Origin: Peribacillus sp. ACCC06369
GTDB taxonomy: Bacteria; Bacillota; Bacilli; Bacillales; DSM-1321
NCBI RefSeq assembly: GCF_030348945.1
Contig: NZ_JAUCEN010000002.1
Span: 4,588,001-4,652,000 of the forward strand
Length of the DNA stretch: 64,000 nt
Direction: 5' to 3'
The notes under the pieces are model-generated. The model was not told where the DNA came from and did no database searches. It saw only the letters and a list, made by a program, of their open reading frames with translations. A program made the position numbers and the translations under genes. Position 1 is the stretch's first letter; each line of letters begins with the position of its first letter. Of this stretch, positions 5,241 through 48,795 are shown one piece after another.

Positions 5241-5256
5241 AACTAACGCACCCGTT
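5241..5256. repeat. GTTAG repeat R1: right arm cut by IS110
   Basis: AACTAACGCACCCGTT is a right arm interrupted after the TT of GTTAGTT by the IS110 left end. Its continuation, AGTTTTAAAGTATA, appears at 6739 immediately after the IS. It matches the usual AGTTTAAGTACA that follows other right arms. Confidence 0.7.
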
Positions 5257-6738
5257 CGTATTATAAGGTCATCCAGAAAATATTTCTGGTTGACCATTTT
5301 TTATATCGATATATGATAACCGTAGCCGGTGTAGAACGTCCGCACCTGTGGGACTAGATCCCGTCAACTAAACAGTTCGCCCCCTACTTGTAGAAACATG
5401 ATTGAGGCTGGTTGGGACTATGATCTCGTATAACAAGCGAAGCTATGATACTACAAGAAGGAATTGGGGTACCGGTTATTTTATATTAGGAGGAGATAAT
5501 TTATGAATCCAGTAGTTGGTCTGGATGTGGCAAAAGGGGAAAGTCAGGTTCAAGCTTTCTTGGATAAAAAGCAGCCTTACAAAAAAGGCTTTAAAGTAGC
5601 ACATACTCTTGAAGGGTTAGCTAGTCTTCTAGACTTTATTAGAGAAGTAGAAAATGTATCCGGGGAACGGCCTCCCATTGTATTAGAATCCACTGGACAT
5701 TATCATACACCAGTTGTCCAGTATTTCGAGGATAGAGGGTACTTATTGATTATCGTAAATCCACTCATATCGTATCGAGCTAAGAGTTCTAGTTTACGCA
5801 AGGTAAAGACAGATGTCATTGACGCTCGCCATCTCTGCGAGCTGTATTATAAAGAGGACTTAGAGCCTTATAAACAGCGAGGAATCCAGCTCTTAAACCT
5901 ACGTAACCTTACAAGACAGCACGAAAATATTACAGGCATGTTTGTACAAACTAAATTACAATTTCAAGCAGTTCTGGATCAAGTGTGTTTCCTGAATACC
6001 GTGGGGTTTTTGGGGACTTACATTCATATGTTTCTTTACTAACTTTACACGCATTTCCTACCTCCGAAGAAATCTTGGATACTGGTGAAGAGACAATCGC
6101 CAAGAAAATAAAAGAATTATGTAAAAGTCGTTCGCAAAAATGGGCAGACAGTCAGGCAGAAAAATTGATGGCCGCCGCAGCTCAAAATCCATTTCAGAAA
6201 AACCTATATCATAGTCTGATTTTAAGCCTGGATATGTATATTAATATGCTTCTTGAATACAAAAAGCATCTATCCAAGCTTGAAGATGAGATAGATGCTT
6301 TAGCAAAAGGTATTGAAGAGTGTAAGATTATCCAATCGATCCCTGGTATCGGAGAAAAAATCGCTGCCACGATAATTTCTGAAATTGGGGAAATTGATCG
6401 GTTTAATCATCCTAAGAAACTGGTTGCATTTGCCGGAATCGATCCAAGTGTCTTTGAATCTGGTACATTCAAAGGTACTTTAAATCGGATTACCAAAAGA
6501 GGTTCTAGTAGGCTACGACACGCCTTGTATATGGCTGTAAAATGTGCCATTCGTGATTGTCGCAAAAAGAAAACGACAGATGAAATCATTCCTCGTAACA
6601 AGCGATTACGAGAGTTTTATGATAAGAAACGTGAGGAAGGAAAGCCCTTTAAAGTAGCCGTTATAGCATGTGCCAATAAATTCTTACATTGGATTTATTC
6701 ACTTTTAAAAAGCAAATCGATTTTCCAAGATCTAGCCT
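5257..6738 (+). mobile_element. IS110-family element inserted in GTTAG repeat R1
   Basis: The element runs from CGTATTATAAGG (5257) to the last codons of the transposase. Boundaries come from the flanks: CACCCGTT on the left and AGTTTTAAAGTATA on the right reconstitute a repeat right arm. The left end holds about 245 bp of noncoding DNA before the transposase, the usual IS110 architecture. A stem-loop (GGTCATCCAGAAA against TTTCTGGTTGACC, 5268-5298) lies just inside. The same left-end sequence occurs inverted at 8060-8110. The exact ends are inferred. Confidence 0.65.
5300..5495 (+). ncRNA. Candidate IS110 bridge RNA region
   Basis: IS110 elements are known to express a structured bridge RNA from the noncoding left end upstream of the recombinase. 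This stretch is that region: about 200 nt without an ORF, with several short inverted repeats, and partly conserved in the IS110 remnant at 7990-8060. No guide loops were assigned. The call rests on position and family knowledge only. Confidence 0.35.
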
Positions 6739-6740
6739 AG
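5503..6740 (+). pseudogene. IS110-family transposase, frameshifted
   Basis: The frame starts at ATG 5503 with AGGAGG 8 nt upstream. The N-terminal DEDD RuvC-like domain is clear (VVGLDVAKGESQV, VLESTGHYHTPV, KVKTDVIDARHL). Near 5985 the frame is lost: DQV should be followed directly by FPEYRGVFGDLHSY, which is read in another frame (5985-6740). An extra TG in a GTGTG run explains this. The downstream part keeps the Transposase_20 domain with the IPGIGEKIAATIISEIG helix-hairpin-helix and the C-terminal catalytic region LVAFAGIDPSVFESG. Repairing the frameshift would give about 410 residues. The copy is probably inactive unless programmed shifting occurs. Confidence 0.85.
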
Positions 6741-6764
6741 TTTTAAAGTATAACTAAACAGCCC
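6739..6764. repeat. GTTAG repeat R1 continuation and degenerate left arm
   Basis: AGTTTTAAAGTATA resembles the flank that follows other right arms, and AACTAAACAGCCC resembles the start of a left arm. The IS110 stop codon TAG overlaps the first bases. Confidence 0.5.
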
Positions 6765-6874
6765 AAAAATTTCCAAACACAGAACCTTGGACGGTTATTT
6801 GGTATACGCAAATTTAGTAAATCATGAAACATTTTAAGTGTTTATTGAAAAATGTTGACAAACTATTGGCTGGT

Positions 6875-7105
6875 TTAGTTCATTAAGAAACCCTGTATGG
6901 AAACAAAGAATACAAATAAAGAGATAACAATGTTCATATATCCCCAAAAGCCTTTTCTGTCTTTTTGAAGTTCGGCAAATCCTGTCACCAATATAAGTGC
7001 CCCTAAGAAAAGCATATAATACGGCATTAACTCGGCTTCCGTTATTAGACTATAACTTGATATAACAATAACAACTATTGCTAAGATAACTCTAACCATT
7101 TTCAA
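6875..7105 (-). CDS. DUF3953-like small membrane protein
   Basis: A 76-residue protein with three predicted membrane helices, around residues 5-20, 28-45 and 56-73. The pattern, including YYMLFLGALILVTGFAELQ, resembles the DUF3953 (YczI) family of Bacillus membrane proteins of unknown function. It lies 75 bp downstream of another small membrane protein gene on the same strand. The two form the gene content between repeats R1 and R2. Confidence 0.6.
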   Translation of the reverse strand: MKMVRVILAIVVIVISSYSLITEAELMPYYMLFLGALILVTGFAELQKDRKGFWGYMNIVISLFVFFVSIQGFLMN

Positions 7106-7179
7106 GAAAATATTTCCCCCTATTAAGCAACTCCCTTATTGAAGTAGAGGACTTGTACTTTAAGAACAAAATTTATTTA

Positions 7180-7494
7180 TTAGGCACTAATAATACTGTT
7201 TTTATTTTTTAAGTAAATAAACAAATTAAATATGCTTAACCCTAAAATTATAAGAAACAAATATGAGGAAATAGCGTCTCCTGCTAAATTTAATTCATCA
7301 GCTATAAATCCCATAATAATAAGATTAATACCAGAAACAATTATTGAAATTAGTGAAGTAATACTAACTGTGAAGCCATTAACGAGGTTGCTTCGTTTCT
7401 TTTGAACCAATAAAATAATTGAAATAACAATTAAACTAATTATCAAAGTAATAAAAACTAATCTTAAAAAATCGTATATTTCCAACCCTTCCAT
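7180..7494 (-). CDS. Small membrane protein of unknown function
   Basis: A roughly 104-residue protein with three hydrophobic segments (LVFITLIISLIVISIILLV, SLISIIVSGINLIIMGFIA, YLFLIILGLSIFNLFIYL) and a short KNK tail. I chose the ATG at 7494, with AAGGGGG 7 nt upstream, over the ATG at 7500 that touches the ribosome site. I do not recognise a family. The gene starts about 60 bp from the left arm of repeat R2. Confidence 0.6.
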   Translation of the reverse strand: MEGLEIYDFLRLVFITLIISLIVISIILLVQKKRSNLVNGFTVSITSLISIIVSGINLIIMGFIADELNLAGDAISSYLFLIILGLSIFNLFIYLKNKNSIISA

Positions 7495-7551
7495 AGTCAT
7501 CCCCCTTATTATCCTTCCTCTATTAATTTACCATAAAAATCCATATTTAAC

Positions 7552-7577
7552 TTTATGCAACTAACCTGCCCCGTTAG
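7552..7577. repeat. GTTAG repeat R2: left arm
   Basis: TTTATGCAACTAACC, then TGCCCCGTTAG. After GTTAG the copy is interrupted by the IS110 remnant and the 210-bp repeated segment; a right-arm-like stretch follows at 8111. Confidence 0.75.
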
Positions 7578-7780
7578 CCATCCATGAATCGCAAAAATCG
7601 GCGATTCACCACAAAGAATGAAAATGGTTAGGAAGTGTCAATACTGATACTGACCTTAATCCAGTCAACCCTAATCCATAGACTAATTAATTAACGCTCT
7701 CCTCTTTTTTTTAAACGATTGAGCAGGGTCCTTTTAAGTATTGTCATTTTTCATTTTTAAAGAAACTTATTTTCATGGTA
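7571..7780. repeat. 210-bp segment, copy 1 (second copy 25016-25226)
   Basis: This segment is about 98% identical, in the same orientation, to 25016-25226. Both copies begin exactly at CCGTTAG of a repeat arm (left-type arm here, right-type arm in the other copy) and end at TTCATGGTA. It has no ORF of note. It contains a GAATCGC...GCGATTC hairpin and a long T tract. It could be a gene-less cassette or one end of a mobile element. Confidence 0.85.
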
Positions 7781-7784
7781 GTTT

Positions 7785-8130: not shown

Positions 8131-8204
8131 TAAAGACTTACTAAAACCAACACCCTCGTTTTCATAATTGGGATGAAAGGGATCTCAGTGGTTGATGCCA
8201 TTAT

Positions 8205-14840: not shown

Positions 14841-14920
14841 TGCGCTACTTGCCCCTTTAAATCCATAAGAAAAAGGCTGCCGCAGCAACCTTCCTTATCG
14901 ATGTAAAGCATCTGTTAGTT
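14841..14920 (-). repeat. GTTAG repeat R3 (full copy)
   Basis: Left arm CTACTTGCCCCTTTAAAT with CCATAAG, the GGCTGCCGCAGC hairpin, and right arm GCATCTGTTAGTT. Located 38 bp past the stop of the minus-strand MFS gene; on that strand the hairpin is followed by TTTTTC and should act as its terminator. Confidence 0.8.
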
Positions 14921-14957
14921 CATCATAAAATCTCATTTCATAGAGAAATTGGTTATT

Positions 14958-16530: not shown

Positions 16531-16534
16531 ACAT

Positions 16535-16612
16535 TAAGCTAACCTTTCTTTAGTTCAATAAGAAAAAAGGCTGCCGAGCAACCTCGCTTATTGAAATAAA
16601 GCACCTGTTAGA
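16535..16612 (-). repeat. GTTAG repeat R4 (full copy)
   Basis: AGCTAACCTTTCTTTAGTTC, then AATAAG, a GGCTGCCGAGCAACC centre, CTTATTGAA and GCACCTGTTAG. Here the inner arms TTCAATAAG and CTTATTGAA are perfectly complementary, which shows the long-hairpin fold best. Confidence 0.8.
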
Positions 16613-16665
16613 TGATGAAGGAGAAAGTGATTTACCTCGGATTGAAAGTACATTGTCTAATCAAA

Positions 16666-17358: not shown

Positions 17359-17423
17359 GAATATTCCCCTTTTAATTTGAAATGAATTGAAAATTACAAA
17401 CATAAATTCAATGTATCTTTCTT

Positions 17424-17506
17424 CTTAAACAAACCCGCCATTTTAGTTCCATAAGAAAACAAGTGTTGCCGCAGCTTGTTATTAACATAAAACACCTGTA
17501 AGTTGT
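17424..17506 (-). repeat. GTTAG repeat R5 (full, diverged)
   Basis: AACAAACCCGCCATTTTAG, then TTCCATAAG, a TGTTGCCGCAGC centre, and CACCTGTAAGTT. The racemase gene begins 66 bp away and the PepSY gene ends 72 bp away. Confidence 0.65.
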
Positions 17507-17577
17507 AGATGGTGTTTGCTAAAAATCTAAGTTAGATACTTCTCACAGTAAAACACATTCCTTAATGGGTCCCCTAG

Positions 17578-18192: not shown

Positions 18193-18633
18193 TTATAAAC
18201 TTTTCTTCATAACTATCCTATGTTCATTTACAACAAAATCATTCTTTCGATAAAATGCTTCTGCAAGCCCGTCGTTAGCAGTTAATAAATATAGGCTTTT
18301 AATCCCTCTCTTCTGTAGTTCATCTTCTAAAGAATGAAGCATTTTTGAGCCGTATCCCTTACCTTGCATTTGATTATTTACACAAAGTTCCGCCAGATAA
18401 AAAGTTAAACCTTGATAAGACACCTTACTATTTCCAGCAATAAAACCTACTGGATTGTGATCGTCATGGAATAAAAAACCAAGAAACTTAGGAGTATTCA
18501 ATAAGTCAGTAAGTCTTTCATTTGCAGTCTCGTATGTCCAACTTTCATTCCATGGTTCACTATTAAAAACGTTCATGTAGAGTTCGATACATAGCTCTAA
18601 ATTCTCCGATGTCATTGGTAACATTTCTGTCAT
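18193..18633 (-). CDS. GNAT family N-acetyltransferase
   Basis: An acetyltransferase of about 146 residues. The acetyl-CoA-binding motif A is CVNNQMQGKGYGSKMLHSLE (Q/R-x-x-G-x-G/A), preceded by strand FYLAEL and followed by YLLTANDGLAEAFYRKNDFV. The substrate is unknown. The start at ATG 18633 is favoured by AAGGAA at 8 nt; an ATG at 18639 is the alternative. GNAT genes are frequent cassette cargo, and this one lies close to repeat R6. Confidence 0.85.
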   Translation of the reverse strand: MTEMLPMTSENLELCIELYMNVFNSEPWNESWTYETANERLTDLLNTPKFLGFLFHDDHNPVGFIAGNSKVSYQGLTFYLAELCVNNQMQGKGYGSKMLHSLEDELQKRGIKSLYLLTANDGLAEAFYRKNDFVVNEHRIVMKKSL

Positions 18634-18700
18634 ATTCATGCTTCCTTTCTATTTTCATTAAAATTTTGTATATTAATCCAAATTATATCTTATCTTTGTT

Positions 18701-18800
18701 GAACTAACCTGACCCTTTAGATGCATAAGAAAGGAGCTGCCTTAAAGACAGCTCCGCTCTTCAGCTAACGCACCCGTTAGTTTAAGTACAAACCTTCACA
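18701..18800 (-). repeat. GTTAG repeat R6 (full copy, AGCTGCC hairpin type)
   Basis: GAACTAACCTGACCCTTTAG, then ATGCATAAG, hairpin AGCTGCCTTAAAGACAGCT, AGCTAACGCACCCGTTAG, and flank TTTAAGTACA..CTTCACAA. It represents the second centre type, with AGCTGCC/GACAGCT instead of GGCTGCCGCAGC. Confidence 0.88.
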
Positions 18801-18804
18801 ATCT

Positions 18805-18828
18805 TGCTAACCTGCCACGTTAGCTTAA
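18805..18828 (-). repeat. GTTAG left arm R6b directly after R6
   Basis: GCTAACCTGCCACGTTAGC lies only about 15 bp from the end of R6, with no gene in between. This looks like a cassette that has lost its cargo. Confidence 0.7.
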
Positions 18829-18841
18829 CAATGAAAACAAA

Positions 18842-19030: not shown

Positions 19031-19083
19031 AAAATCACCTCTTAGTAACAATTTTCCGTAATCACTGTTTAACAATCATTCTT

Positions 19084-19166
19084 TCACAAATCTGCCACTT
19101 TAGTGCCATAAAAAAAGCTGCCTTTAAGACAGCTCCAATCTTCAGCTAACGCACTGTAAGGTTCAT
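19084..19166 (-). repeat. GTTAG repeat R7 (full, diverged ends)
   Basis: TCTGCCACTTTAGTGCCATA, hairpin AGCTGCCTTTAAGACAGCT, then CAGCTAACGCACTGTAAG. It ends about 10 bp before the stop of the CPCC gene. Confidence 0.78.
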
Positions 19167-19820: not shown

Positions 19821-19926
19821 CCTTATGGAACTATACTGCCCCGTTAGTGCCATAAGAAAAAGGCTGCCGCAGCAACCCCTGTTAATGAACTAAAGCACCT
19901 GTTAGTTTAAGTACATTACTTCACAA
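19821..19926 (-). repeat. GTTAG repeat R8 (full copy)
   Basis: CTTATGGAACTATACTGCCC, then CGTTAGTGCCATAAG, GGCTGCCGCAGCAACC, TTAATGAACTAAAGCACC, and TGTTAGTTTAAGTACA. The flank CTTCACAA supplies the stop codon of the next gene. Confidence 0.9.
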
Positions 19927-20127: not shown

Positions 20128-20155
20128 TTTCAATCCCCTTTTTGGTAAATTACCT

Positions 20156-20195
20156 TCCTAACCTGCCCCGTTAGTTGCATAAGAAAAAAGCTGCC
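20156..20195 (-). repeat. GTTAG repeat R9 (left arm and half hairpin)
   Basis: CTAACCTGCCCCGTTAG, then TTGCATAAG and AAAAAAGCTGCC. The other half of the hairpin and the right arm are missing; unrelated DNA follows. Confidence 0.75.
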
Positions 20196-20199
20196 TAAT

Positions 20200-20488
20200 T
20201 TTTTAAGTAACTTTATTAATTTTCAAAGGGATAATAGTTGATTTGCATACGTTAAGATAGTTTCATAAAGGGTCTAATTGATACTTTGATTTTGGAAAAT
20301 CTATTAGTACTGATATTAGCCTGGATTGAGTTTAAATGTATCAGTACTATAAACGAACGTTTTTGATAAGTAGCAACAGCCCACTTGATCTATTCGAGGC
20401 GTTTTAGACTGTACCGAAACCGTGCTATAGCAATGGGAAAACAAAAAGACCCCCTTAAAATAGGAGTCTAGTAGAAGCTTGAAATTCG
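20200..20488. other. Gap without a recognised gene
   Basis: No convincing ORF on either strand. Reverse-strand reading gives a broken protein-like stretch (WAVATYQKRSFIVLIHLNSI) interrupted by stops, possibly transposase debris that I cannot assign. A weak hairpin with AGACCCCC/AGGAGTCT lies near 20448-20475. Confidence 0.4.
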
Positions 20489-21562: not shown

Positions 21563-21600
21563 CTTATAAAACTATCCTGCCCCGTTAGTTCCATTAAGAT
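21563..21600 (-). repeat. GTTAG repeat R10: left arm
   Basis: CTTATAAAACTATCCTGCCC, then CGTTAGTTCCATTAAG. Instead of a hairpin it is followed by a 120-bp segment shared with 38111-38243 and the gene at 21707. The right arm appears at 22016. Confidence 0.8.
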
Positions 21601-21724: not shown

Positions 21725-22000
21725 TAAGGATATTTTATTTTTTAACTGATTATTTAAAAATACAAGAAATACTCTTTGAGATTTTTCCCTTTTTATAATT
21801 CTTTTTACACGCATTGTACTTTGTAAATACTGCCTAACATTTCTATTTACAAAAAACAATCGGTGATATTTTTCATCTTCGTATATATTTTTAAACCAAG
21901 TATGATTCTTCAGCATTTCTATATTTCGATCAATTTTTCGAGTATCCAAAGAATTATCACCGAATCCTGCGGAAAGAATGCCTAAAAGAAAATCTATCAT
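21707..22000 (-). CDS. Uncharacterised small protein, paralogue of 49597-49881
   Basis: A 97-residue protein. Residues about 22-80 (TRKIDRNIEMLKNHTWFKNI, then YEDEKYHRLFFVNRNVRQYL, MRVKRIIKREKS) align with the 94-residue protein at 49597-49881 (TKHTDKHIEILKEYDWF, NPKYTRLF, NRMIKKKKPSETLIIILD). Shared positions are W-F, K-Y-x-R-L-F and a basic patch. The family is unknown to me. The last residues (SLIMNQG) are probably foreign, because the stop falls in the segment duplicated from 38181-38243, so the original C-terminus was replaced by recombination. ATG 22000 has GGGGG upstream. Confidence 0.65.
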   Translation of the reverse strand: MIDFLLGILSAGFGDNSLDTRKIDRNIEMLKNHTWFKNIYEDEKYHRLFFVNRNVRQYLQSTMRVKRIIKREKSQRVFLVFLNNQLKNKISLIMNQG

Positions 22001-22015
22001 AGCTTAATTATCCCC

Positions 22016-22062
22016 CTGTTATTGAAGTAAAGCACCCGTTAGTTTAAGTACAATCCTTCACA
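22016..22062 (-). repeat. GTTAG repeat R10: right arm
   Basis: TTATTGAAGTAAAGCACCC, then GTTAGTTTAAGTACA and CCTTCACA. It is separated from its left arm (21563) by about 410 bp holding a gene. Confidence 0.85.
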
Positions 22063-22584: not shown

Positions 22585-22840
22585 TTCAAAACCTCAAATT
22601 TAGCAACAAATTTTTATTTTGTTTCGATAAATAACGACATTCTTATACTATTTTAGGTTAAACTGCTCGGAAATAAAGAACTTTCAACAATCATTTTACT
22701 TACTGTTTCGTTAAAATTTAAAATACTTTTTTTAGTTCTATACTATTTCTTACATTTTCAGTGTTGTTTCTATAATTAAACTATTCTTTCTGTTCCGTTT
22801 TTGAATTAGTACTACTTAATTCCAAATTAAACAGTTATTA

Positions 22841-22930
22841 TACTAACCTGCCCCTTTAGTTGCATAAGAAAAAGCAGAAAAAGCCGCCTTAAAGACAGCT
22901 CCGATCTTAAGCTAATGCACCCGTTTGTGA
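22841..22930 (-). repeat. GTTAG repeat R11 (full copy)
   Basis: TACTAACCTGCCCCTTTAG, TTGCATAAG, a CCGCCTTAAAGACAGCTCC centre, GCTAATGCACCCGTTTG. It ends 9 bp before the stop of the 58-residue gene. Confidence 0.85.
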
Positions 22931-22938
22931 AATAAATC

Positions 22939-23115: not shown

Positions 23116-23237
23116 TGGATTATTTTTAATATAGAGTCACTCCCATTTTTTACACCTAGCAGTAATTATTAAATAATACGGATTGATTTTGTACTCATTC
23201 TTCATTGGAATAACTATACACTAAAATAATACCTTCT

Positions 23238-23318
23238 TGAACTAACCTGCCCCGTTAGTTCCGTAAGAAAATGGTCGCCGCAGCACCCCCTATTAATAAA
23301 CTAAACCAGCTAATAGAA
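23238..23318 (-). repeat. GTTAG repeat R12 (left arm good, right arm decayed)
   Basis: TTGAACTAACCTGCCCCGTT, AGTTCCGTAAG, GTCGCCGCAGC centre, then TAATAAACTAAACCAGCTAA. The terminal GTTAGTT is degraded to CTAATAG. Confidence 0.75.
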
Positions 23319-24671: not shown

Positions 24672-24951
24672 AACCACTTCTCCTTAAAAGACTATAAACT
24701 GCATCAGAAATATTTATCGTCATTTTTTGGTTAATTATACCATTATTAATCTAGTTATTAGGTAATTTACATAAATTTAACAATCATTAATTGTTACGAG
24801 GAATATTAATCATATTTAATTCGCTAGAAATTGATGTGTTGAATCTTCTTTGTAATAATGTGGTTACTGATGTAGCAAAGCTTCATGAATAATGAGGGAG
24901 TTCATTTATTATTAAAAATAATAAATAAAACCTCATTTACACACGTTACGC

Positions 24952-25022
24952 TTAACCTGACTTCCCCTTTAGTGCCATAAGAAAAAGGCTGCCGCAGCAA
25001 CCTCGAATTAAGCACCCGTTAG
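24952..25022 (-). repeat. GTTAG repeat R13 (full copy)
   Basis: CTTAACCTGACTTCCCCTTT, AGTGCCATAAG, GGCTGCCGCAGCAACC, TTAAGCACCCGTTAG. The 210-bp segment starts within its last bases. Confidence 0.85.
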
Positions 25023-25933: not shown

Positions 25934-26000
25934 AAGATTCCCCCCAGACTTATATTGATTTTACTGAATTTAAATTAACTTTCTTACCCCAATCATTTGT

Positions 26001-26083
26001 TGAACTATCCTGCCCCTTTAGTCCGGTAACAAAAAAGGCTGCCGCAGCAACCTCATTAATGAAGTAAAGCACCCGATAGTTCA
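26001..26083 (-). repeat. GTTAG repeat R14 (full copy)
   Basis: TGAACTATCCTGCCCCTTTA, GTCCGGTAAC, GGCTGCCGCAGCAACC, TTAATGAAGTAAAGCACCC, GATAGTTCA. The stop codon of the next gene (26081) overlaps its end. Confidence 0.85.
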
Positions 26084-26455: not shown

Positions 26456-26550
26456 ATATACTACTCCCTTCTTTACATTTATTCAGCCGAATCATAGGAT
26501 AATTTTAACATTATTAATTTGAAATTAAACAGATTTTGGAATATTTTTCA

Positions 26551-26625
26551 TGAAGCAAGCCTACCCCATTTGTCGCATAAGAAAAGGAGCTGCTGATCAG
26601 CTCCTGGTAATGAAGTGAAAAGTCA
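26551..26625 (-). repeat. GTTAG repeat R15 (full, diverged right arm)
   Basis: GCAAGCCTACCCCATTTG, TCGCATAAG, hairpin GGAGCTGCTGATCAGCTCC, TAATGAAGTG. It represents a third centre type, shared with R20. Confidence 0.72.
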
Positions 26626-30739: not shown

Positions 30740-30771
30740 GGGTATTTATAAAATTTTCGCTTTACATTCTT

Positions 30772-30802
30772 CTTCATCTATCCTGCCCAGATAGTTCCAT
30801 AA
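30772..30802 (-). repeat. GTTAG repeat R18: left arm (intron-interrupted)
   Basis: CATCTATCCTGCCCAGATAG, then TTCCATAA, at which point the group II intron begins. The rest of the unit is at 32691-32743. Confidence 0.85.
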
Positions 30803-32690
30803 ATCGAGTAGGAGGAGGCGCCTAGCCTCCGACCTCTCACACCACCGTACATACCGTTCGGTATACGGCGGTTCAGTTTAAGTCTGACGTAGTTTTGTAT
30901 ATCGTTCATATAGATTTACTAACCCTTGGTGGTGCCAATAAACATTATTAAGGGTTTTGTCTAGAATAGGACTATGCGCTATGCGCCAATAACCCTTTCT
31001 GCTATTTCCCCATTCATACGCTTTTCCAAATGGGGCGCCTAATCCTTTGAGTTTCCTCACTCTCGTTCTTGGCAATTTCCATTGCTTCCATAGGCACATC
31101 CTGAGTCTTCTTCGAATCCATGAATCTAAATTCTTCAAAACGTTCGGAGTATCAATGAGGGCGAAATAACCCATCCAACCTCTAAGGTATTGCTTTAACT
31201 TATTTATTCGGAGTTTCATGGGTTTCGGTAATTTTCTCGAGGTCATTTCCCTGATTCGTTTCTTTACTCTCTTCACCGTTTGTTTAGCCAGTAGAACCTT
31301 CGGGTTCTTCTTTGACTTCGTGAAACTAAAACCGAGAAACGTTCTGTTCCAAGGGCGATCATACTTCGACTTCTCGTAGTTGACCTTTAGCTTCAGTTTA
31401 TTTTCAATGAAGCTTGAGATATTTCCCATTGCACGTTTGGCGGCTTTTCGTGTCTTCACAAAGATAGTACTGTCATCCGCATACCTTACGAATCGAAGAT
31501 TGCGTTTCTCTAGTTCTTTATCTAAATCGTCTAACATGATATTAGATAATAAAGGACTTAACGGACCTCCTTGCGGAGTTCCCTCCTCACTTTTATGAAA
31601 AAGTCCGCCTATCATAATGCCTGCTTGAAGGAATCTACGAATCAGTTTGAGAACTCGTTTATCTTCAATTTTCCGCTCTAACATTCCCATGAGCTTGTCA
31701 TGATTCACTTTATCGAAGAACTTCTCCAAGTCCATATCCACTACCCATGTATAACCTTCGGTTATATAGGACTTTGCCTTTCGAACCGCCTGGTGCCCTT
31801 GTTTGTTAGGGCGAAAACCATAGCTATTCTCCGAAAAGGTTGAGTCATATATCCTGGTTAATATTTGGGCAATGGCTTGTTGAATGAAACGGTCTAGAAC
31901 GGTTGGAATACCCAATAGCCGAACTCCGCCGTTTGGTTTCGGGATTTCGATACGACGGACGGGCTGCGGTTGATAGGTACCCTGTAAAAGGGCAGTTTTC
32001 ATGTTGTACCATTCAGTTGCGAGGTGCGGTCTCAGGTTTTGAACCGGCATTCCATCTACACCATGGCTTCCCTTATTTCTTTCTACACGCTTCAATGCCT
32101 GTATTAAGTTTTCCCTCTCTAGTATCTGTTCCATTAACATCGTTGATATCCTTTCTACGTGGATAAATGGTCTATTTGTGCCTTTATCTGCTCCACCCTT
32201 TTGAAGTTCCCCGTGTATTCACCACTTCTTCCTTCAAATAAGTTCCGTTAGGAATTGTTTGCTTCTTCGCAGATAACGAACGCCTAGTATTCATCCTCCT
32301 TAATCTGTTCGGTCCTTCCTTATCTTCTCGAGTAGACAAGTACTATGACCTCTGCTGACTTCTGATGATTCAGCTGTCCATCACTGGACAGGTTACCAAG
32401 TGTACTTGGCTGTCATCAGACCTCCCCGGGTAAGAGTGCAATCTTTCCCTCCATCTATCTGCTTCATTTACTCTGTACCACCTTCGGCAGTAAGGACTTT
32501 GTTTTGTTTCGCAAACTCATCCAATGATACCTAGCCTTATATGAAGTTCGTGTTCCTCAGACCGGAGGTTTGCCGCTTGCTTCCTTCAGATTCCACGTCA
32601 CCATGGACACCCTTGCATTAAGCTAACCATTACTACTGCCTTCATGGTTCGGGACTCACACCCTATAGATTGCACCCATGCCGGGCGCAC
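30803..32690 (-). mobile_element. Group IIC intron inserted in GTTAG repeat R18
   Basis: On the minus strand the intron begins GTGCGCCCGGCATGGGTG (5' end at 32690). It contains the reverse transcriptase ORF and ends with a domain V/VI-like stretch (CCGTATACCGAACGGTATG to CTCGAT, ending at 30803). Joining the exons gives GGCAGCTCTTTTTC + TTATGGAACTA, which is exactly the uninterrupted repeat seen elsewhere. The insertion point follows a terminator hairpin and its T tract, the known preference of group IIC introns, which also use attC sites. Confidence 0.88.
30878..32140 (-). CDS. ltrA: Group II intron reverse transcriptase/maturase (group IIC type)
   Basis: A 420-residue protein that strongly resembles GsI-IIC-type RTs. 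The fingers/palm blocks include VRRIEIPKPNGGVRLLGIPT, FSENSYGFRPNK, VVDMDLEKFFDKVNHD and the catalytic RYADD (in RFVRYADDSTIFVKT). EEGTPQGGPLSPLLSNIMLD is RT block 4. The thumb/maturase domain (LRGWMGYFALIDTPNVLKNL, WIRRRLRMCLWKQWK) is present. The endonuclease domain is absent, as usual for group IIC. The frame is intact with GAAAGGAT upstream of the ATG, so the intron may be mobile. Confidence 0.93.
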   Translation of the reverse strand: MLMEQILERENLIQALKRVERNKGSHGVDGMPVQNLRPHLATEWYNMKTALLQGTYQPQPVRRIEIPKPNGGVRLLGIPTVLDRFIQQAIAQILTRIYDSTFSENSYGFRPNKQGHQAVRKAKSYITEGYTWVVDMDLEKFFDKVNHDKLMGMLERKIEDKRVLKLIRRFLQAGIMIGGLFHKSEEGTPQGGPLSPLLSNIMLDDLDKELEKRNLRFVRYADDSTIFVKTRKAAKRAMGNISSFIENKLKLKVNYEKSKYDRPWNRTFLGFSFTKSKKNPKVLLAKQTVKRVKKRIREMTSRKLPKPMKLRINKLKQYLRGWMGYFALIDTPNVLKNLDSWIRRRLRMCLWKQWKLPRTRVRKLKGLGAPFGKAYEWGNSRKGYWRIAHSPILDKTLNNVYWHHQGLVNLYERYTKLRQT

Positions 32691-32743
32691 GAAAAAGAGC
32701 TGCCATAAAGACAGCTCCGATCTTGAGCTAACGCACCCGTTAG
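32691..32743 (-). repeat. GTTAG repeat R18: hairpin and right arm
   Basis: GAAAAAGAGCTGCCATAAAG, ACAGCTCCGATCTTGAGCTA, ACGCACCCGTTAGT. On the minus strand AGCTGTC/GGCAGCT plus CTTTTTC is the 5' exon of the intron. Confidence 0.88.
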
Positions 32744-32839
32744 TAATTTTTTTTACTATAAAATATAACTACCTTCCTCTTTAGCTCGTATAATGCAAGC
32801 ACTGATGATATGTTCTAACACATACATTTTTCTGCATGA

Positions 32840-33396: not shown

Positions 33397-33546
33397 ATTG
33401 ATCATCTCCATTAAAAATATTTCAGATGGCAGACGTATCATGAGACATATATTTTTGGTCAATAAAAAAGACCAATATCTCTACACACTGATATAACAAT
33501 ATTAGCACGCTTTTCAAATGTATTTCAAGGCTTAATCTGGACCTTA

Positions 33547-33621
33547 TTCAACTAACCTGCCCAGTTTGTTCCATAATAAAAGGAGCCCCTGATAATGAAG
33601 TAAAGCACCCGTTAGTTGAAG
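33547..33621 (-). repeat. GTTAG repeat R19 (full copy)
   Basis: TTCAACTAACCTGCCCAGTT, TGTTCCATAAT, a short AGGAGCCCCT centre, TAATGAAGTAAAGCACCC, GTTAGTTGAAG. Confidence 0.88.
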
Positions 33622-33808
33622 AATACAGCTCAATTTTATCCCAATATATAGGAGACAACCTAATAGAATGACGGTTTTTCAAAATCACTATTGGGTTCGC
33701 TGACTCCTAAACTTTCGCATTTTGTGTTATCAGCAAGGTCTCAAAAATAAATTAAAAGAAATTAACAGAAAAGAAAAAGGCAGCCAAGTAAATTGGCTGT
33801 CTCTTTTT

Positions 33809-36089: not shown

Positions 36090-36198
36090 AATATAGGCTC
36101 CTTTTCGTGTGTAGCTCTACACTTGGTTTTTTATTTTTGGTAGTAACATTATGACCAAGTGCAATCTACGTTAAGCGATGGGAGCCGTTTTCGTTCAT

Positions 36199-36284
36199 TA
36201 TGACTAACCTGCCCCGTTTGTTGCATAAGAAAAGGAGCTGCTGATCAGCTCCTGGTAATGAAGTAAAGCACCTGTTAGTTGAAG
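36199..36284 (-). repeat. GTTAG repeat R20 (full copy next to IS1111-type element)
   Basis: TGACTAACCTGCCCCGTTTG, TTGCATAAG, hairpin GGAGCTGCTGATCAGCTCC, TAATGAAGTAAAGCACC, TGTTAGTTGAAG. The left edge adjoins the IS inverted repeat. Confidence 0.88.
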
Positions 36285-36299
36285 AAATCATATCCTTGC

Positions 36300-36850: not shown

Positions 36851-36958
36851 CTTAATGAACTAACCTGCCCCAATAGTTGCATAAAGAAAAAGCTGCCTTA
36901 AAGACAGCTCCGATCTTCAGCTAACGCACCCGTTAATTTAAGTACATTTCTTCACAAA
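36851..36958 (-). repeat. GTTAG repeat R21 (full copy)
   Basis: CTTAATGAACTAACCTGCCC, CAATAGTTGCATAAAG, AGCTGCCTTAAAGACAGCT, AGCTAACGCACCCGTTAA, TTTAAGTACATTTCTTCACA. Confidence 0.9.
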
Positions 36959-38043: not shown

Positions 38044-38084
38044 AAGGAGAGTACATATTAGCCATGTATATACTCCCCTTTTTT
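38044..38084 (+). terminator. Intrinsic terminator
   Basis: GGAGAGTACATA and TGTATATACTCC form a stem, followed by a C-rich step and TTTTTT. Confidence 0.65.
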
Positions 38085-38090
38085 CTTTTA

Positions 38091-38120
38091 CTGAACTAAA
38101 GCACCCGTTAGTTCTATAAG
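38091..38120 (-). repeat. GTTAG repeat R22 (right arm)
   Basis: CTGAACTAAAGCACCC, then GTTAGTTCTATAAG. From GTTAGTT on the sequence matches 21584 onward. Confidence 0.85.
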
Positions 38121-38396: not shown

Positions 38397-38475
38397 ATTC
38401 TCACCTCAACTATTACTACGTTTTGGTAGTGATCAAAGTTTCATTATTTACTGCACAGTTCGAATAAACTATGCT

Positions 38476-38566
38476 TCATGAACTAACCTGCCCCGATAGT
38501 TCCATAAGGAAAAAACTTCCTTAAAGACAGTTCCGATCTTAAGCTACGCACCCGTTAGCTTAATAA
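38476..38566 (-). repeat. GTTAG repeat R23 (full copy)
   Basis: TTCATGAACTAACCTGCCCC, GATAGTTCCATAAG, a CTTCCTTAAAGACAG centre, AAGCTACGCACCCGTTAG. The bases just upstream (CACAGTTCGAATA) recur at 50211. Confidence 0.85.
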
Positions 38567-38614
38567 GAAAAAAACACCTTAGTTGGCATTTTTCGGCACA
38601 GTAAATATGCTGGT

Positions 38615-41044: not shown

Positions 41045-41087
41045 AAAGTAGTCGATCTCCTCGACGTTAAGGAATCGACTTTTTTTA
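41045..41087 (+). terminator. Intrinsic terminator
   Basis: AAGTAGTCGAT and AATCGACTTTTTTT form the stem; similar in sequence to the terminator at 12990. Confidence 0.65.
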
Positions 41088-41099
41088 CTTCCTCTTATA

Positions 41100-41128
41100 G
41101 AGCTAACGCACCCGTTAGTTCATTAAGA
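41100..41128 (-). repeat. GTTAG repeat R24 (right arm)
   Basis: GAGCTAACGCACCCGTTAGT, then TCATTAAG. A minus-strand terminator hairpin (GGCCATCC/GGACAGCC with a T run, 41150-41180) lies between it and the SRPBCC gene. Confidence 0.8.
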
Positions 41129-41304: not shown

Positions 41305-41745
41305 CTATGAGAATACTGCAATTTTACGTGCGATAGATTCTGTTAAACGAGATGCTACTTTTGGAACAGCCCATTTAATAATTGGTGTTAATACCGCACC
41401 AGATAATCCGCCTGCATGGATTTCCACCGTACAAGTCATTATTGTTTTACCATTAACATCTTCTGCAGTAAAGTGACCGCTTCCTGTAAAATTATCTGAT
41501 AAACCTTTTAGTTCAAACTTAATATTTGAAGGTTCATTCCATTCGGTAATATCTACCTGCGCTTGTATTGTTTTTTTAATACCTTTCACACTACCTTCAA
41601 ATGTCCAAATAGATTGCTTGTCATTTATGATTTCATGTTCTTTATAGGCTGGTACTGTCGTTGCCCATTTTTCGAGATCACTGACATAATCCCAAACTGC
41701 TTGTACATCTACTGGAACTACTACAGTATGCGTTCCCGTTGCCAT
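41305..41745 (-). CDS. SRPBCC (CoxG-like) family protein
   Basis: A 146-residue START/SRPBCC-fold protein. The N-terminal strand and helix (HTVVVPVDVQAVWDYVSDLE, KWATTVPAYKEHEII) and the repeated beta strands (NIKFELKGLSDNFTGSGHFT) are characteristic of the CoxG group. It is predicted to bind a small hydrophobic ligand; the role is unknown. ATG 41745 with AAGGTGGGG upstream is the start. Cytoplasmic. Confidence 0.85.
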   Translation of the reverse strand: MATGTHTVVVPVDVQAVWDYVSDLEKWATTVPAYKEHEIINDKQSIWTFEGSVKGIKKTIQAQVDITEWNEPSNIKFELKGLSDNFTGSGHFTAEDVNGKTIMTCTVEIHAGGLSGAVLTPIIKWAVPKVASRLTESIARKIAVFS

Positions 41746-41968
41746 TATGATCCCCACCTTCACTATGTATGAATTGTAACTTTACATTTCTACAAAATAA
41801 TTATTACATAAAAAGCATAAATTTACATCACTAATTATACATAGCTTTCCTTCTTCCAATCCCCCAATTATTTGTAGAATCAAAATTTTCCAATCCTCCA
41901 CAATCCGGCCCTTTAATGGAATAACAGGACTGACGTTTTTAAACGACTTTAATGTCACTTAACAGTAT

Positions 41969-42016
41969 TCCTTATGGAACTTTCCTGCCCCTATAGTTTA
42001 AGTACATTCTTTCACA
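41969..42016 (-). repeat. GTTAG repeat R25 (fused left and right arms)
   Basis: CTTATGGAACTTTCCTGCCC, then CTATAGTTTAAGTACA and CTTTCACAA. The left half of a left arm runs straight into the flank of a right arm, as if the centre had been lost by recombination between the two GTTAGTT boxes. Confidence 0.75.
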
Positions 42017-45378: not shown

Positions 45379-45942
45379 TTAATCCCCATTCAAATGATAG
45401 ATTAGTTGCACAACGCCAGAGGAGAACGTTCTTGTATTAACCACTTTTAAATTCAACCTCTGTTTTATATCAATAAACAACGGTTTTCCTTCTCCCAAAA
45501 TTACAGGGTGAACAGATAATCTAAATTCATCAACAAGCCCTAAGTTGATAAAACTAGTAATAAGACTTGCTCCACCATATAACCAGATGTCTTTACCAGG
45601 CTTATTCTTTAATTTATTTACTTCTTCAAGAATATTATCATTTATGAATATCGCTTTATTATCAGTCCCTTTTTGCGTTCTGGAAAACACATATTTTTCT
45701 TTACTATGAACTAATTCCCAAATTTCTTTATCTGTATCTTCAATTTCTGGAGTAAATTGTCCCCATAAATCGTAGCTTTTTCTTCCATATAAAATAGTAT
45801 CAATTTGATTTAAGAAATTAATAAACCCCATCTCAGAATCCATGATGCACCAATCAACTTCCCCATTTTTCCCTTCAATAAAACCATCTAAAGTAATTGC
45901 TAAATCTAAAATTATTCTTCTTGGTCGTACGTTATTGGTCAT
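45379..45942 (-). CDS. Dihydrofolate reductase family protein (RibD C-terminal-like)
   Basis: A 187-residue protein of the DHFR/RibD-C fold. RRIILDLAITLDGFIEGKNG, ILYGRKSYDLWGQF (the YGRxTY motif) and KDIWLYGGASLITSFINLGL (NADPH-binding GG) are in the usual order of YwjB/YyaP-type proteins. Genuine folate activity is unlikely; the substrate is unknown. GGGAGG precedes the ATG. DHFR-like genes are common in cassettes. Confidence 0.88.
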   Translation of the reverse strand: MTNNVRPRRIILDLAITLDGFIEGKNGEVDWCIMDSEMGFINFLNQIDTILYGRKSYDLWGQFTPEIEDTDKEIWELVHSKEKYVFSRTQKGTDNKAIFINDNILEEVNKLKNKPGKDIWLYGGASLITSFINLGLVDEFRLSVHPVILGEGKPLFIDIKQRLNLKVVNTRTFSSGVVQLIYHLNGD

Positions 45943-46097
45943 AATTCTTCCTCCCTTTAATCATTTAGATATAGTTTCTCCCGCCAAGTTTTTTTATATT
46001 TTCATTATTTACAGCATTTATTTCTGAATATTACTGATGTTATTAAACTGCCTTCCCTTAATAACAATTAGTTATTCAGGATATGGCATATACACTC

Positions 46098-46226
46098 TTG
46101 AACTTTCCCGCCCCGTTTGTTGCATAGGGGTACTTTCTTTCTTCTCTAATTTGAATGGAAACTCACATTCAAAAGACCACCAATTTGGTGGCCTTCTAAA
46201 TGAACTAACACACTCGTTAGTTAAGT
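46098..46226 (-). repeat. GTTAG repeat R27 (full, enlarged centre)
   Basis: TTGAACTTTCCCGCCCCGTT, TGTTGCATA, then an insert, hairpin AGACCACCAATTTGGTGGCC, TAAATGAACTAACACACTCG, TTAGTTAAG. A fourth centre type. A further degenerate left arm (TTAAACTGCCTTCCC) is at 46043. Confidence 0.75.
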
Positions 46227-46457: not shown

Positions 46458-46767
46458 TCATACCTCCGATTTATTAAATTTGGGATTTAACTAATATGGA
46501 GTTGTGTCCTAAAGGAATAAGATTCTGCTATCATATGACTATTGTACCTTAAAGAATACACTGTGTCTTGCAGGAGCCAGACACCCAAATGTGAAAGAAA
46601 CAGATTAATTGGTATACTTTAATTTTATTATTTCGGATATATAACCTTTAATTCATCATGATAAAAAATTGAAATAGATAAAATTACTAATATCGTACCC
46701 CATTACAATACAAGTAAATCCTGGAACGATTTCATGCTGAATCTAAATAAAAGGTAATTATAGTAAA
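46458..46767. other. Gap without a recognised gene
   Basis: A+T-rich, no ORF with a ribosome site and no clear hairpin except the start of repeat R28. Confidence 0.4.
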
Positions 46768-46825
46768 AAGAAAAAACTCCCTTAAAGACAGCTCTCATTT
46801 TCAGCTAACGTACCTGTTAGTTGTA
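46768..46825 (-). repeat. GTTAG repeat R28 (hairpin and right arm)
   Basis: AAGAAAAAACTCCCTTAAAG, ACAGCTC, CAGCTAACGTACCTGTTAG. The left arm is missing. It ends 28 bp before the stop of the next gene. Confidence 0.75.
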
Positions 46826-46852
46826 GAGGTTTTTTTAAGCACTTAAATTCCA

Positions 46853-47250: not shown

Positions 47251-47381
47251 GCTATTCGTTTCTGTTGGCAATGTAAATTATTTGGTACAATACCCCTCAG
47301 CTGAATTTTTCTTCCATCAAGAAAAAGACCACAAAAAGGATCTGGTACATATGACTATACTATAATTGGATTTATCTACCA

Positions 47382-47457
47382 CTTAATAAACTGCCCCTTT
47401 AGCTCTATAAGAAAAAAGCGACGCTTCGTTATTGAAGTATCGCACATGTTAGTTCAA
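47382..47457 (-). repeat. GTTAG repeat R29 (full copy)
   Basis: CTTAATAAACTGCCCCTTTA, GCTCTATAAG, hairpin AGCGACGCTTCGTT, TTGAAGTATCGCACATGTT, AGTTCAA. Confidence 0.78.
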
Positions 47458-47517
47458 CAACTATTTCATTTGCATTAAGCTTGTCCACAAAAATTCTTCT
47501 CCGAAAAATTCACTTGG

Positions 47518-47882: not shown

Positions 47883-47896
47883 AAAGTTAAGCTGCA

Positions 47897-47932
47897 TACA
47901 AAAGGGAACCTTTTAGGCTCCCTTTTGTATCT
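47897..47932 (+). terminator. Intrinsic terminator
   Basis: CAAAAGGGAACC pairs with GGCTCCCTTTTG around a TTTTA loop. Confidence 0.75.
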
Positions 47933-47994
47933 GTTTTACTAAAATTTAAAGAGGAGTGTAATCAATCCGTATCTTTTCACTTTTTTTTGTAGTT

Positions 47995-48147
47995 TCATTT
48001 AGGTCTTGTAGCTCTTATTTTCCCACTTTCACCTAGCTCACGAGAAAACTCTTCATCCACACGATCCGGTTCTATTTTTAAGTTTTTGGGAGTTTGAGGT
48101 AATGAATTTTTACTGCTAGATGGTTTTTGATTGTTTGATCTTCCCAT
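47995..48147 (-). CDS. YfhD-like small protein (50 aa)
   Basis: A short ORF with AGGAGG 8 nt before ATG 48147. It encodes MGRSNNQKPSSSKNSLPQTP, KNLKIEPDRVDEEFSREL and GESGKIRATRPK. The LPQTPxxLKxxPDxxDxEFSxEL pattern resembles the YfhD family of small hydrophilic Bacillus proteins of unknown function, often spore-associated. Convergent with the 27-residue ORF at 47799. Confidence 0.65.
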   Translation of the reverse strand: MGRSNNQKPSSSKNSLPQTPKNLKIEPDRVDEEFSRELGESGKIRATRPK

Positions 48148-48261
48148 AATATTGCCTCCTAACGAAATTTTAATCTTTATTAGTATGGCTAAGAATCACA
48201 TTTATATATCTTTAGATTTGCTCATGAACGAACATTTTTATCTTAAAAACAGTTTTTGGTG

Positions 48262-48300
48262 ATAGCTCCGATCTTCAGCTAACGCACCCGTTCTTTAGCT
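48262..48300 (-). repeat. GTTAG repeat R30 (half hairpin and right arm)
   Basis: GATAGCTCCGATCTTCAGCT, then AACGCACCCGTTCTTTAG. Left arm absent. Confidence 0.75.
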
Positions 48301-48324
48301 CAATAGCAAATGAATTACAACTCG

Positions 48325-48672
48325 TTATTTCTCCCAAAGCTCGACCAGTCGACCTTCAGGATCTTCAATCCAAATAAACTTTCCAAATTCACTAATCTCT
48401 TTTTTCTTCGCAAGAGGTACACCAATATGTTCAAGATGCTTAATAGTCTCGTTTAGATTATGTACTTCGAAATTTAACATCACTTGTTGTTCTGTTGGAA
48501 AATAACTGTCATTCTCGGTAAAGAAAGAAAAGATGGTCTCATTTCCTAATTGGGGTTTTATCACAGTCCCATTCCAATTTTCTATTTCAATCTTCAACAC
48601 TTCACTGTACCATTTTTTTATAACTTCAAGATTCTTAGTTCTCCAAAATATTCCTCCGAAACCTTTTATCAT
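48325..48672 (-). CDS. VOC family (glyoxalase-like) protein
   Basis: A 115-residue protein with paired beta-alpha-beta-beta-beta modules of the vicinal oxygen chelate fold (FGGIFWRTKNLEVIKKWYSE, MLNFEVHNLNETIKHLEHIG, FGKFIWIEDPEGRLVELWEK). The final ExxG/VELWE region carries the usual metal-ligand glutamate. Substrate unknown. CAGGGG lies upstream of the ATG. Single gene between R30 and R31. Confidence 0.85.
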   Translation of the reverse strand: MIKGFGGIFWRTKNLEVIKKWYSEVLKIEIENWNGTVIKPQLGNETIFSFFTENDSYFPTEQQVMLNFEVHNLNETIKHLEHIGVPLAKKKEISEFGKFIWIEDPEGRLVELWEK

Positions 48673-48752
48673 CGTATCTAACCCCTGTCTGTCATCAAAT
48701 TTTTAGCTATCCGATTACATTAGATATTCGAGATTTAAATTCAAGTTCCTTT

Positions 48753-48795
48753 TTCAACTTATCCTGCCCCTTTAGTTCCAAAAGAAAAAGGAACC
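48753..48795 (-). repeat. GTTAG repeat R31 (left arm; last copy seen)
   Basis: TTCAACTTATCCTGCCCCTT, TAGTTCCAAAAG, AAAAAGGAACC. No further clear copies lie to the right apart from a decayed stretch near 53445. Confidence 0.75.

Follow-up and report, generated by a model that had tools for sequence, protein, structure and literature searches.

A chromosomal stretch of Peribacillus sp. ACCC06369 in which copies of one repeat separate small genes raises the question of whether it is an integron-like cassette array. Most of the large cassette arrays known belong to Gram-negative integrons. The window, which is the whole stretch of 64,000 nucleotides analysed here, starts at position 4588001 of contig NZ_JAUCEN010000002.1 (C2) of assembly GCF_030348945.1. 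The initial annotation described positions 5241..48795 of it as an array of gene cassettes delimited by attC-like repeats. The label "cassette array" holds, and the label "integron attC" does not. The window is probably part of a cassette array with two-core repeats, the genes of which are likely to be moved by a tyrosine recombinase of the A3 type, found next to such cores in relatives.

R1, a sequence-only model of the repeat built from 12 window copies, gives 44 matches in the window at E<=10, and 35 of the 37 matches at E<=0.013 are on the plus strand. In gene orientation, that is, on the minus strand, the window contains 23 type-1 and 22 type-2 cores of at least 11 bits; these 45 cores compare with none of either type in one shuffled window, so the repeats are real. 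Among five weak core matches on the plus strand (11–13 bits), three overlap minus-strand cores and are palindrome shadows, whereas two (6858 and 28750) do not. The type-1 core (core 1) is AACTAAC-GGGTGC-GTTAG and the type-2 core (core 2) is AACTAAC-GGGGCAG-GTTAGTT, with spacers (GGGTGC and GGGGCAG, respectively) of 6–7 nt. The full repeat consists of two palindromic cores, which are its most conserved portions, flanking a terminator-like hairpin with a T-run, in the consensus order core 1, hairpin, core 2. The hairpin with its T-run is a plausible intrinsic terminator. The plus-strand anatomy is as originally described: AACTAAC-CTGCCCC-GTTAGTT-CCATAAG, hairpin, CTTAATGAACTAA-GCACCC-GTTAGTT. 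The description as a single attC-like repeat needs correction, however, in that each end alone is a full palindromic core, the arms of which measure about 14 bp. Genes sit between the sites, and single cores are present in the window as well (Table 1). Two kinds of segment alternate: a gene segment, composed of the core-2 right arm, the gene and the core-1 left arm, and a hairpin segment, composed of the core-1 right arm, the hairpin with its T-run and the core-2 left arm.

The array does occupy 5241..48795, but these are not its limits, as it reaches C2:4531–4637 kb. R1 matches are absent from 7587 to 14844, leaving the sorbitol/yoa stretch uninterrupted as claimed. The genes were said to lie mostly on the minus strand with their stops against the site. 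Consistently, among the 498 units of 30 regions, 397 have their longest ORF in the same direction as the site, 87 have it in the opposite direction and 14 have no 50-aa ORF; the median stop-to-site distance is 46 bp. Rfam models at gathering thresholds find a group II intron alone in the window, and a tRNA search of the window finds none.

Table 1 Features of the window (positions are those of the window; scan, core scan).
Feature	Position	Strand	Basis or remark
Type-1 core 5239-5263	5229..5265	-	R1 + scan; IS110-family element lies here
IS110-family element	about 5239-6880		ORFs 5503-6042 + 5985-6740; at type-1 core
Type-2 core 7555-7582	7552..7587	-	R1 + scan
192-bp module	7570-7761		overlaps type-2 core 7555-7582; second copy 25015-25206, 97%
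Site: core 1 14899-14923, terminator module, decayed core 2	14844..14925	-	R1 + scan
Site: core 1 16592-16616, decayed core 2	16532..16620	-	R1 + scan
Two-core site, cores 17483-17507 + 17424-17451	17421..17510	-	R1 + scan
Cargo example: GNAT acetyltransferase gene	18193..18639	-	
Two-core site, core 1 18761-18785, core 2 18698-18725	18695..18789	-	R1 + scan
Extra type-2 core 18801-18828	18801..18837	-	R1 + scan
Two-core site, cores 19142-19166 + 19081-19108	19079..19163	-	R1 + scan
Full two-core site, core 1 19886-19910, hairpin, core 2 19825-19852	19822..19914	-	top-scoring, 86 bits
Type-2 core + partial terminator module	20152..20209	-	R1 + scan
Lone type-2 core	21563..21596	-	R1 + scan
Lone type-1 core 22023-22047	21989..22051	-	R1 + scan
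Two-core site	22835..22935	-	R1 + scan
Site: core 2 23236-23263, decayed core 1	23233..23314	-	R1 + scan
Type-2 core + terminator module, fused to 192-bp repeat module	24950..25022	-	R1 + scan
Two-core site	25996..26088	-	R1 + scan
Partial site, weak type-2 core	26549..26616	-	R1 + scan
Core-2 half of site split by group II intron	30770..30803	-	R1 + scan
Group II intron	30804..32692	-	RT/maturase 30878-32140; RNA domains matched 32312-32607; outer limits set from flanking site halves
Core-1 half (32724-32748) of intron-split site	32693..32748	-	R1 + scan
Two-core site	33543..33623	-	R1 + scan
Two-core site	36198..36287	-	R1 + scan
Two-core site	36851..36945	-	R1 + scan
Lone type-1 core 38092-38116	38084..38120	-	R1 + scan
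Two-core site	38475..38567	-	R1 + scan
Type-1 core 41099-41123	41068..41127	-	R1 + scan
Cargo example: polyketide-cyclase/SRPBCC-type gene	41305..41763	-	
Type-2 core 41974-42001	41971..42001	-	R1 + scan
Cargo example: RibD_C (DHFR-like) gene	45379..45942	-	
Type-2 core 46097-46124	46096..46126	-	R1 + scan
Type-1 core 46201-46225	46192..46225	-	R1 + scan
Type-1 core 46801-46825	46765..46827	-	R1 + scan
Two-core site, cores 47433-47457 + 47380-47407	47380..47460	-	R1 + scan
Type-1 core 48275-48299	48246..48299	-	R1 + scan
Cargo example: glyoxalase-like (VOC) gene	48325..48672	-	scores under Pfam cut-off
Type-2 core 48753-48780	48751..48791	-	R1 + scan; window's last strong site

The repeats are dispersed over the genome of ACCC06369, including a plasmid contig, and R1 gives 153 matches there, 138 of which are listed for the chromosome (C2). 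Among these 138 copies, 45 of 46 to the left of dif are on the minus strand and 92 of 92 to its right are on the plus strand, the switch falling between 2,500,999 and 2,677,961, the second of which is 1.0 kb beyond dif. In ACCC06369 and 11 relatives of the genus, 30 regions contain 596 sites and 498 units, and all 564 R1 matches at E<1e-3 agree in strand within each region. Likewise, sites are confined to a single strand at 118 of 120 named loci and occur on both at the other 2. Chromosomal arrays contain as many as 92 sites within 140 kb. A search of the order with R1 finds sites in 89 of 249 genomes; a count of 16 per genome in this survey, or of about 69 in the genus survey, is a lower bound. 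Neither a search of viral contigs for an exact 17-base half-site nor a blastn search of phage records with one repeat copy found the site. The genes listed for two plasmid stretches include cargo and nothing named integrase.

Gene content between repeats was compared across 12 Peribacillus-genus genomes, with neighbour units compared for lengths of 150–3500 bp and identity floors for unit pairs of 88, 90 or 94% depending on the analysis, lower pairs being dropped. No matching neighbour is present on either side in 129 of 144 homologous unit pairs (solo pairs). Pairs of at least 94% identity number 48 in 32 unit families, and 46 of the 48 are between genomes. Single gene segments with 94–99.8% identity recur among other neighbours and in other species. 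The claim that single-gene units, separated by recombination-type sites, form a cassette-like array is supported by their changed contexts in other genomes, and these comparisons indicate that units move singly between arrays and species.

In integrons, the entire attC site moves together with the 3' end of the gene. For the breakpoint analyses, 34 of the 129 solo pairs were dropped for having intron or IS length (1600–1900 bp), and co-inheritance was defined as at least 85% identity, with unscorable sites outside each n. The gene-side arm is co-inherited in 24/42 scorable pairs at the 5' end and in 17/42 at the 3' end, the far arm in 2/39 and 4/42, and the 3' terminator/hairpin part in 11/47, against a background of 2.6–5.3%. 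These 3' values argue against the initial reading of the repeats as integron attC sites. A comparison of whole sites gives no information on this point: in 17 solo pairs with both sites full, the 3' end is higher than the 5' end in 6 and lower in 10. In pairs with identical gene-side arms, co-inheritance decreases noisily to background at about columns 13–22, in the core-1 spacer, and columns 82–72, in the core-2 spacer. Identity ends at one core or at the other, which suggests that genes and terminators are exchanged independently. Since the cores are conserved, breakpoints are placed with a resolution of about 10 bp and not to the base. Between-genome alignment pieces (n=564) end no more than 25 bp from where a core spacer begins in 217/556 cases and start there in 194/555; for positions drawn at random from these regions the share is 3.6%. 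Alignments of shared genes thus end at repeats about 10 times as often as expected from random positions, and about 61% of ends and 65% of starts are farther than 25 bp from a core. Clean presence/absence pairs are few. The tidiest is that between the 620-kb locus of ACCC06369 and genome G031 (565 bp), and in this pair and in the junction between ACCC06369 and L142, one flank is itself a repeated module.

The statement that no integrase lies in the window agrees with the PF00589 matches listed for the genome, all of which are outside the window. A search for tyrosine recombinases near arrays, one scoring step of which took in 7996 candidates, ties one family to the sites in relatives. A3, an alignment of this XerA/XerD-like family of about 280 aa, has R, K, HxxR, H and Y positions that are invariant among its copies, which have the catalytic set and fold of tyrosine recombinases. 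The first six copies are 61–97% alike; four are among R1-type sites (Viridibacillus, two Paenisporosarcina and one Peribacillus), and two (Lysinibacillus and Paucisalibacillus) are at loci with an exact half-site only. A core lies within about 200 bp of the gene, on either side and in either orientation, at 21 of 44 distinct A3 loci (22 of 45 scanned, G010 being counted twice), a few of them poor-scoring, compared with 0/10 XerC/D-like controls and 1–3% of random 200-bp windows. The scan left out L238 (no ORF) and L242 (<200 bits), and a recognisable core is absent at 23 of the 45 loci. Homology among five aligned Peribacillus-genus copies stops at the downstream core, and their flanks suggest that the A3 gene sits between core 1 and core 2, the slot of the hairpin segment. 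CAATC-type cores, which lie beside recombinases of other genera, are weak candidates for the sites of those enzymes, with 0–2 copies in each of 13 genomes.

Across the order, A3 and sites co-occur with an odds ratio of 11.5. At least 6 sites are present in 16/41 genomes with an A3 match of at least 400 bits and in 11/208 without (p=6.4e-8, Fisher, kinship ignored); with the own genus excluded, at least 3 sites are present in 19/40 and 23/203, respectively (Fisher, kinship ignored). R1 sites are absent in 15 of the 41. A3 matches of at least 450 bits are found in 12/36 genus genomes among the best matches listed, of which that in G012 is partial and those in G020 and G032 have an internal stop, and A3 presence does not visibly track site number in the genus. 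In ACCC06369, no A3 recombinase is found at E<=1e-20; only XerC and XerD match, at 135–140 bits. The tyrosine recombinases near its own clusters (C2:656 kb, 667 kb and 2677 kb) do not belong to the family found beside cores elsewhere and were for this reason rejected as the array integrase.

The dispersal of the repeats and their plausible terminator hairpin would fit scattered terminators or MITE-like insertions with no part in gene movement, but the 10-fold excess of alignment ends makes this reading very improbable. Alternatively, RecA-mediated homologous recombination between dispersed terminator repeats may shuffle genes, the cores being where homology suffices for breakpoints. That the cores are the most conserved parts, that breakpoints are resolved no finer than about 10 bp and that ACCC06369 has shuffled units common to relatives, yet no A3, would all suit RecA. 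However, continuous homology is short, because two full sites taken at random are, on average, 69% alike; breaks occur at both cores separately; a type-1/type-2 hybrid junction with a few bases in common is present; and a recombinase family adjoins the cores. Shuffling by RecA is an unlikely explanation.

There is also a small chance that the repeats are attC sites of a divergent integron, which an IntI-like enzyme would recombine in the form of folded single strands. The R''-L''-loop-L'-R' layout with GTTAG ends, the strand orientation locked to replication and the group II introns within sites are in favour of it. However, the whole site mostly fails to travel with the gene. For the attC-type folding suggested initially, the signs are mixed: the arms are largely complementary in consensus, but over 286 sites the outer arms show no covariation (z=1.0, with z=-0.8 for the inner arms), and folding of three copies yields local hairpins in two and the outer stem in one. 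As for an IntI-like enzyme, all three array-linked recombinases scored reach 96–97 bits with TIGR02249 (IntI), far under its cut-off of 265 bits, and nothing in ACCC06369 exceeds this cut-off; two of the three reach NF040815, which models XerA and has "integron integrase" as part of its NCBI name. Host XerC/XerD, both present in ACCC06369, where A3 was not found, might instead recombine the cores as in Acinetobacter dif modules, which the alternating module classes resemble (PMC13141974), with the A3 gene as a passenger. This too is improbable, as the chromosomal dif ACTTCCTATAATATATATTATGTAAACT is by inspection unlike the core arms and spacers and, across the order, A3 and sites are associated.

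If an A3 recombinase acts on the cores, as the sequence data suggest, its monomers would bind the inverted arms (each about 14 bp long) and swap strands within the 6–7 nt spacer. Two like cores would then excise a circle of gene and terminator, which would reinsert at a matching core in an orientation set by spacer asymmetry. The enzyme may be supplied transiently, for example from plasmids, because ACCC06369 and most genus members examined have no intact A3 yet many sites. On balance, we lean towards a third natural cassette system beside integrons and dif modules, with replication-polarised arrays of about 100 sites at most in Bacillales chromosomes, interchangeable gene and terminator modules joined at cores of two types, and a dedicated Xer-like integrase, itself carried in the terminator slot, as a transient visitor to genomes. 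Searches among open-licence PMC papers listed no recognisable description of this two-core array system. If the A3 recombinase moves genes, the system would correspond in Gram-positive bacteria to integrons; such a system of its own in Bacillaceae and Planococcaceae would explain small-gene trade between soil species, and would be a natural case of terminators exchanged as modules of their own, in arrays whose orientation is tied to replication. One enzyme family and two short cores are named, which makes it directly testable.

The bcr repeats of the Bacillus cereus group are likewise interspersed repeats in Bacillaceae, but are not known to delimit moving gene units. Like integrons, the arrays are made of mostly single small genes, mobile as judged by comparison and uniform in orientation, with the stop beside a recombination-type site with GTTAG-type ends, a tyrosine recombinase near some arrays, and group II introns and an IS element lodged in sites. 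Unlike integrons, each site has two apparent crossover cores, the hairpin segment is exchanged apart from the gene, the recombinase is of the XerA/XerD type, under the IntI cut-off and often absent, and there are many clusters per genome. Acinetobacter plasmid dif modules form two alternating classes with one short core at either end and 6-bp spacers (PMC13141974) and are reported to have IS elements near cores (PMC10132070). The alternation of two module classes between cores, the short spacers (6–7 nt here) and the IS elements near cores are shared with the present arrays. However, the arms here are symmetric, 14 bp long and not dif-like (CTTATTGAACTAAC/GTTAGTTCAATAAG being unlike the own chromosomal dif by inspection), alternation arises via two spacer types (GGGTGC and GGGGCAG) and not via XerC/XerD arm asymmetry, and the arrays are chromosomal, with a dedicated recombinase candidate and one terminator-like module class. 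In its workings the array resembles integrons and Acinetobacter dif modules, yet it departs from both in tested features.

The repeats first described in this DNA are real. R1, a sequence-only model built from 12 window copies, matches the window 44 times at E ≤ 10, and a core-level scan finds 23 type-1 and 22 type-2 cores on the gene-majority (minus) strand of the window and none in one shuffled window. The array delimited by the initial annotation is present, but its bounds were too narrow; it belongs to a cluster extending from 4531 to 4637 kb of the chromosomal contig C2, in which the order is for the most part gene–site–gene. R1 also detects the same repeat at many other chromosomal places and on the 158-kb plasmid contig C1. 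A full copy consists of two palindromic cores rather than the one hairpin proposed. In gene orientation, the consensus of 254 full sites reads TTaTTgAACTAAC-GGGTGC-tTTAgcTgAAg (core 1), a hairpin with a terminal T-run, and CTTATGgAACTAAc-GGGGCAG-GtTAGTTcAAtAA (core 2), so that each half of the site is an inverted repeat about a 6- or 7-base spacer. Cores at which two tyrosine-recombinase monomers bind have this layout of inverted arms around a short spacer. The hairpin and its T-run are plausibly the intrinsic terminator of the upstream gene. The units between sites have a median length of 755 bp, and 325 of the 484 units having an ORF contain exactly one non-overlapping ORF of at least 60 aa.

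The mobility of these units was analyzed in 30 regions picked for holding clusters (11 from this genome and 19 from eleven relatives of the genus; 1.23 Mb in total). In 129 of 144 homologous unit pairs, neither flanking unit matches. Sequence comparison thus indicates that units move singly, and the array and its breakpoints likewise emerge from comparison. When pairs of intron or IS length are left out, 48 pairs in 32 unit families are at least 94% identical, 46 of them between genomes, and the sharing of arms and hairpins was scored on these wherever a pair was scorable. The gene-adjacent arm is common to both members in 24/42 pairs on the 5' side and 17/42 on the 3' side, whereas the far arms are common in 2/39 and 4/42, respectively, near the random-pair level of 2.6–5.3%. 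The hairpin part is common in 6/43 (5') and 11/47 (3') pairs against a background of 5%. In pairs of at least 90% identity whose gene-side arms are identical (24 and 31), co-inheritance drops, noisily, to background; on the 3' side it does so in the core-1 spacer region, and on the 5' side in the core-2 spacer region. Between genomes, 39% of alignment ends (217/556) and 35% of starts (194/555) are located no more than 25 bp from the start of a core spacer, compared with 3.6% at random, and the remaining ends and starts lie elsewhere. At one hybrid junction, an array of this genome and a second locus, L142, have sequence in common up to and including CTAACGGG, past which the array of this genome carries on as type 2 and L142 as type 1; the shared side is itself a repeated module. 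Because the breaks fall at the cores, including this switch of type, genes and terminators appear to be exchanged separately. On these data alone, homologous recombination at the conserved cores could also account for the breaks, though less probably.

The sites are strongly oriented with respect to replication. The chromosomal dif is the sole match allowing up to three mismatches. The 138 chromosomal matches listed form 21 clusters, each separated from the next by more than 50 kb. All 92 to the right of dif are on the plus strand and 45 of the 46 to its left on the minus strand; the match at 1,022,536, the lone exception, is weak and partial. The sign of GC skew flips between the same two halves, and therefore the sites read against the fork and the cargo genes mostly with it. 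This bias would follow from selection for co-directionality of genes and terminators, and equally from a preference of insertion for one template strand. Of the named 8-kb loci, 118/120 carry sites on a single strand and two (L077 and L140) are mixed.

Several other elements lie at or near the sites (table). The main array holds copies of a group II intron that encodes a 420-aa reverse transcriptase, and every copy splits its site at the identical position, separating core 2 from the hairpin. This placement recalls that of group IIC introns within attC sites. Twenty related ORFs form one cluster, assigned to the IS110 type by its window members, and are present in 8 of 16 regions compared. A 192-bp module, whose end GGATGGCTAAC lies at a core, appears to represent a third type of hairpin-like module. 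Sequences with CAATC arms (CAATCGGGCGC, CAATCGGGCAG) may be an additional type of core; they are found in the arrays of this genome and its relatives and next to recombinases in other genera. In its array form, this possible core is present nine times on the gene strand of the 30 regions and once on the opposite strand.

Elements and modules at or near the sites
Feature	Location	Remark
Group II intron	window 30770-32748; C2:4542-4544, 4553-4555, 4571-4573, 4618-4621 kb	four copies in total
IS110-family element	window 5239-6880	at a core
dif	C2:2676924-2676951	
Broken tyrosine recombinase	C2:2677402-2677875 (locus L164)	~0.45 kb from dif; adjoins array sites
Interrupted tyrosine recombinase, stop pattern alike in both copies	C2:656.5-657.1 kb; genome G026, C1:4965.9-4966.4 kb	in clusters of two species
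192-bp module	window 7570-7761 and 25015-25206	97% identical
Possible CAATC-type core beside recombinases	loci L249-L252	

The sites are widely distributed. At E ≤ 0.001, 47 of the 61 relatives have R1 sites, as do, at E ≤ 1e-5, 89 of 249 order genomes, spanning 49 of 105 genera. Exact copies of a 19-base half-site are likewise present in Viridibacillus, Sporosarcina, Paenisporosarcina, Psychrobacillus, Lysinibacillus, Solibacillus, Ureibacillus and further genera, in at least 120 stretches. A family of XerA/XerD-like tyrosine recombinases, A3, often lies beside the cores in relatives. Among the 249 order genomes, at least six sites are found in 16/41 genomes with an A3 match of at least 400 bits and in 11/208 without (p = 6.4e-8, uncorrected for phylogeny). 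With the own genus removed, at least three sites are found in 19/40 genomes with such a match and in 23/203 without. R1 sites are absent from 15 of the 41 order genomes having the match, and within the genus many genomes of at least 50 sites, this one among them, show no such recombinase gene. We infer that the recombinase acts on the sites.

The cassette system is real and unusual, and no published description of it was found. Integrons are present in Firmicutes among other phyla according to passages of 'The Natural History of Integrons' (PMC8618304), and those passages contain no system resembling the present one. The arrays share with integrons mobile single-gene cassettes and GTTAG-type ends; however, the defining features tested, IntI and travel of the whole site with the gene, failed here. 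The arrays also resemble the dif modules of Acinetobacter, for which two reports describe two module classes alternating between short cores (PMC13141974; PMC6449649), but the core arms, judged by inspection, lack the dif-like character that defines those modules.
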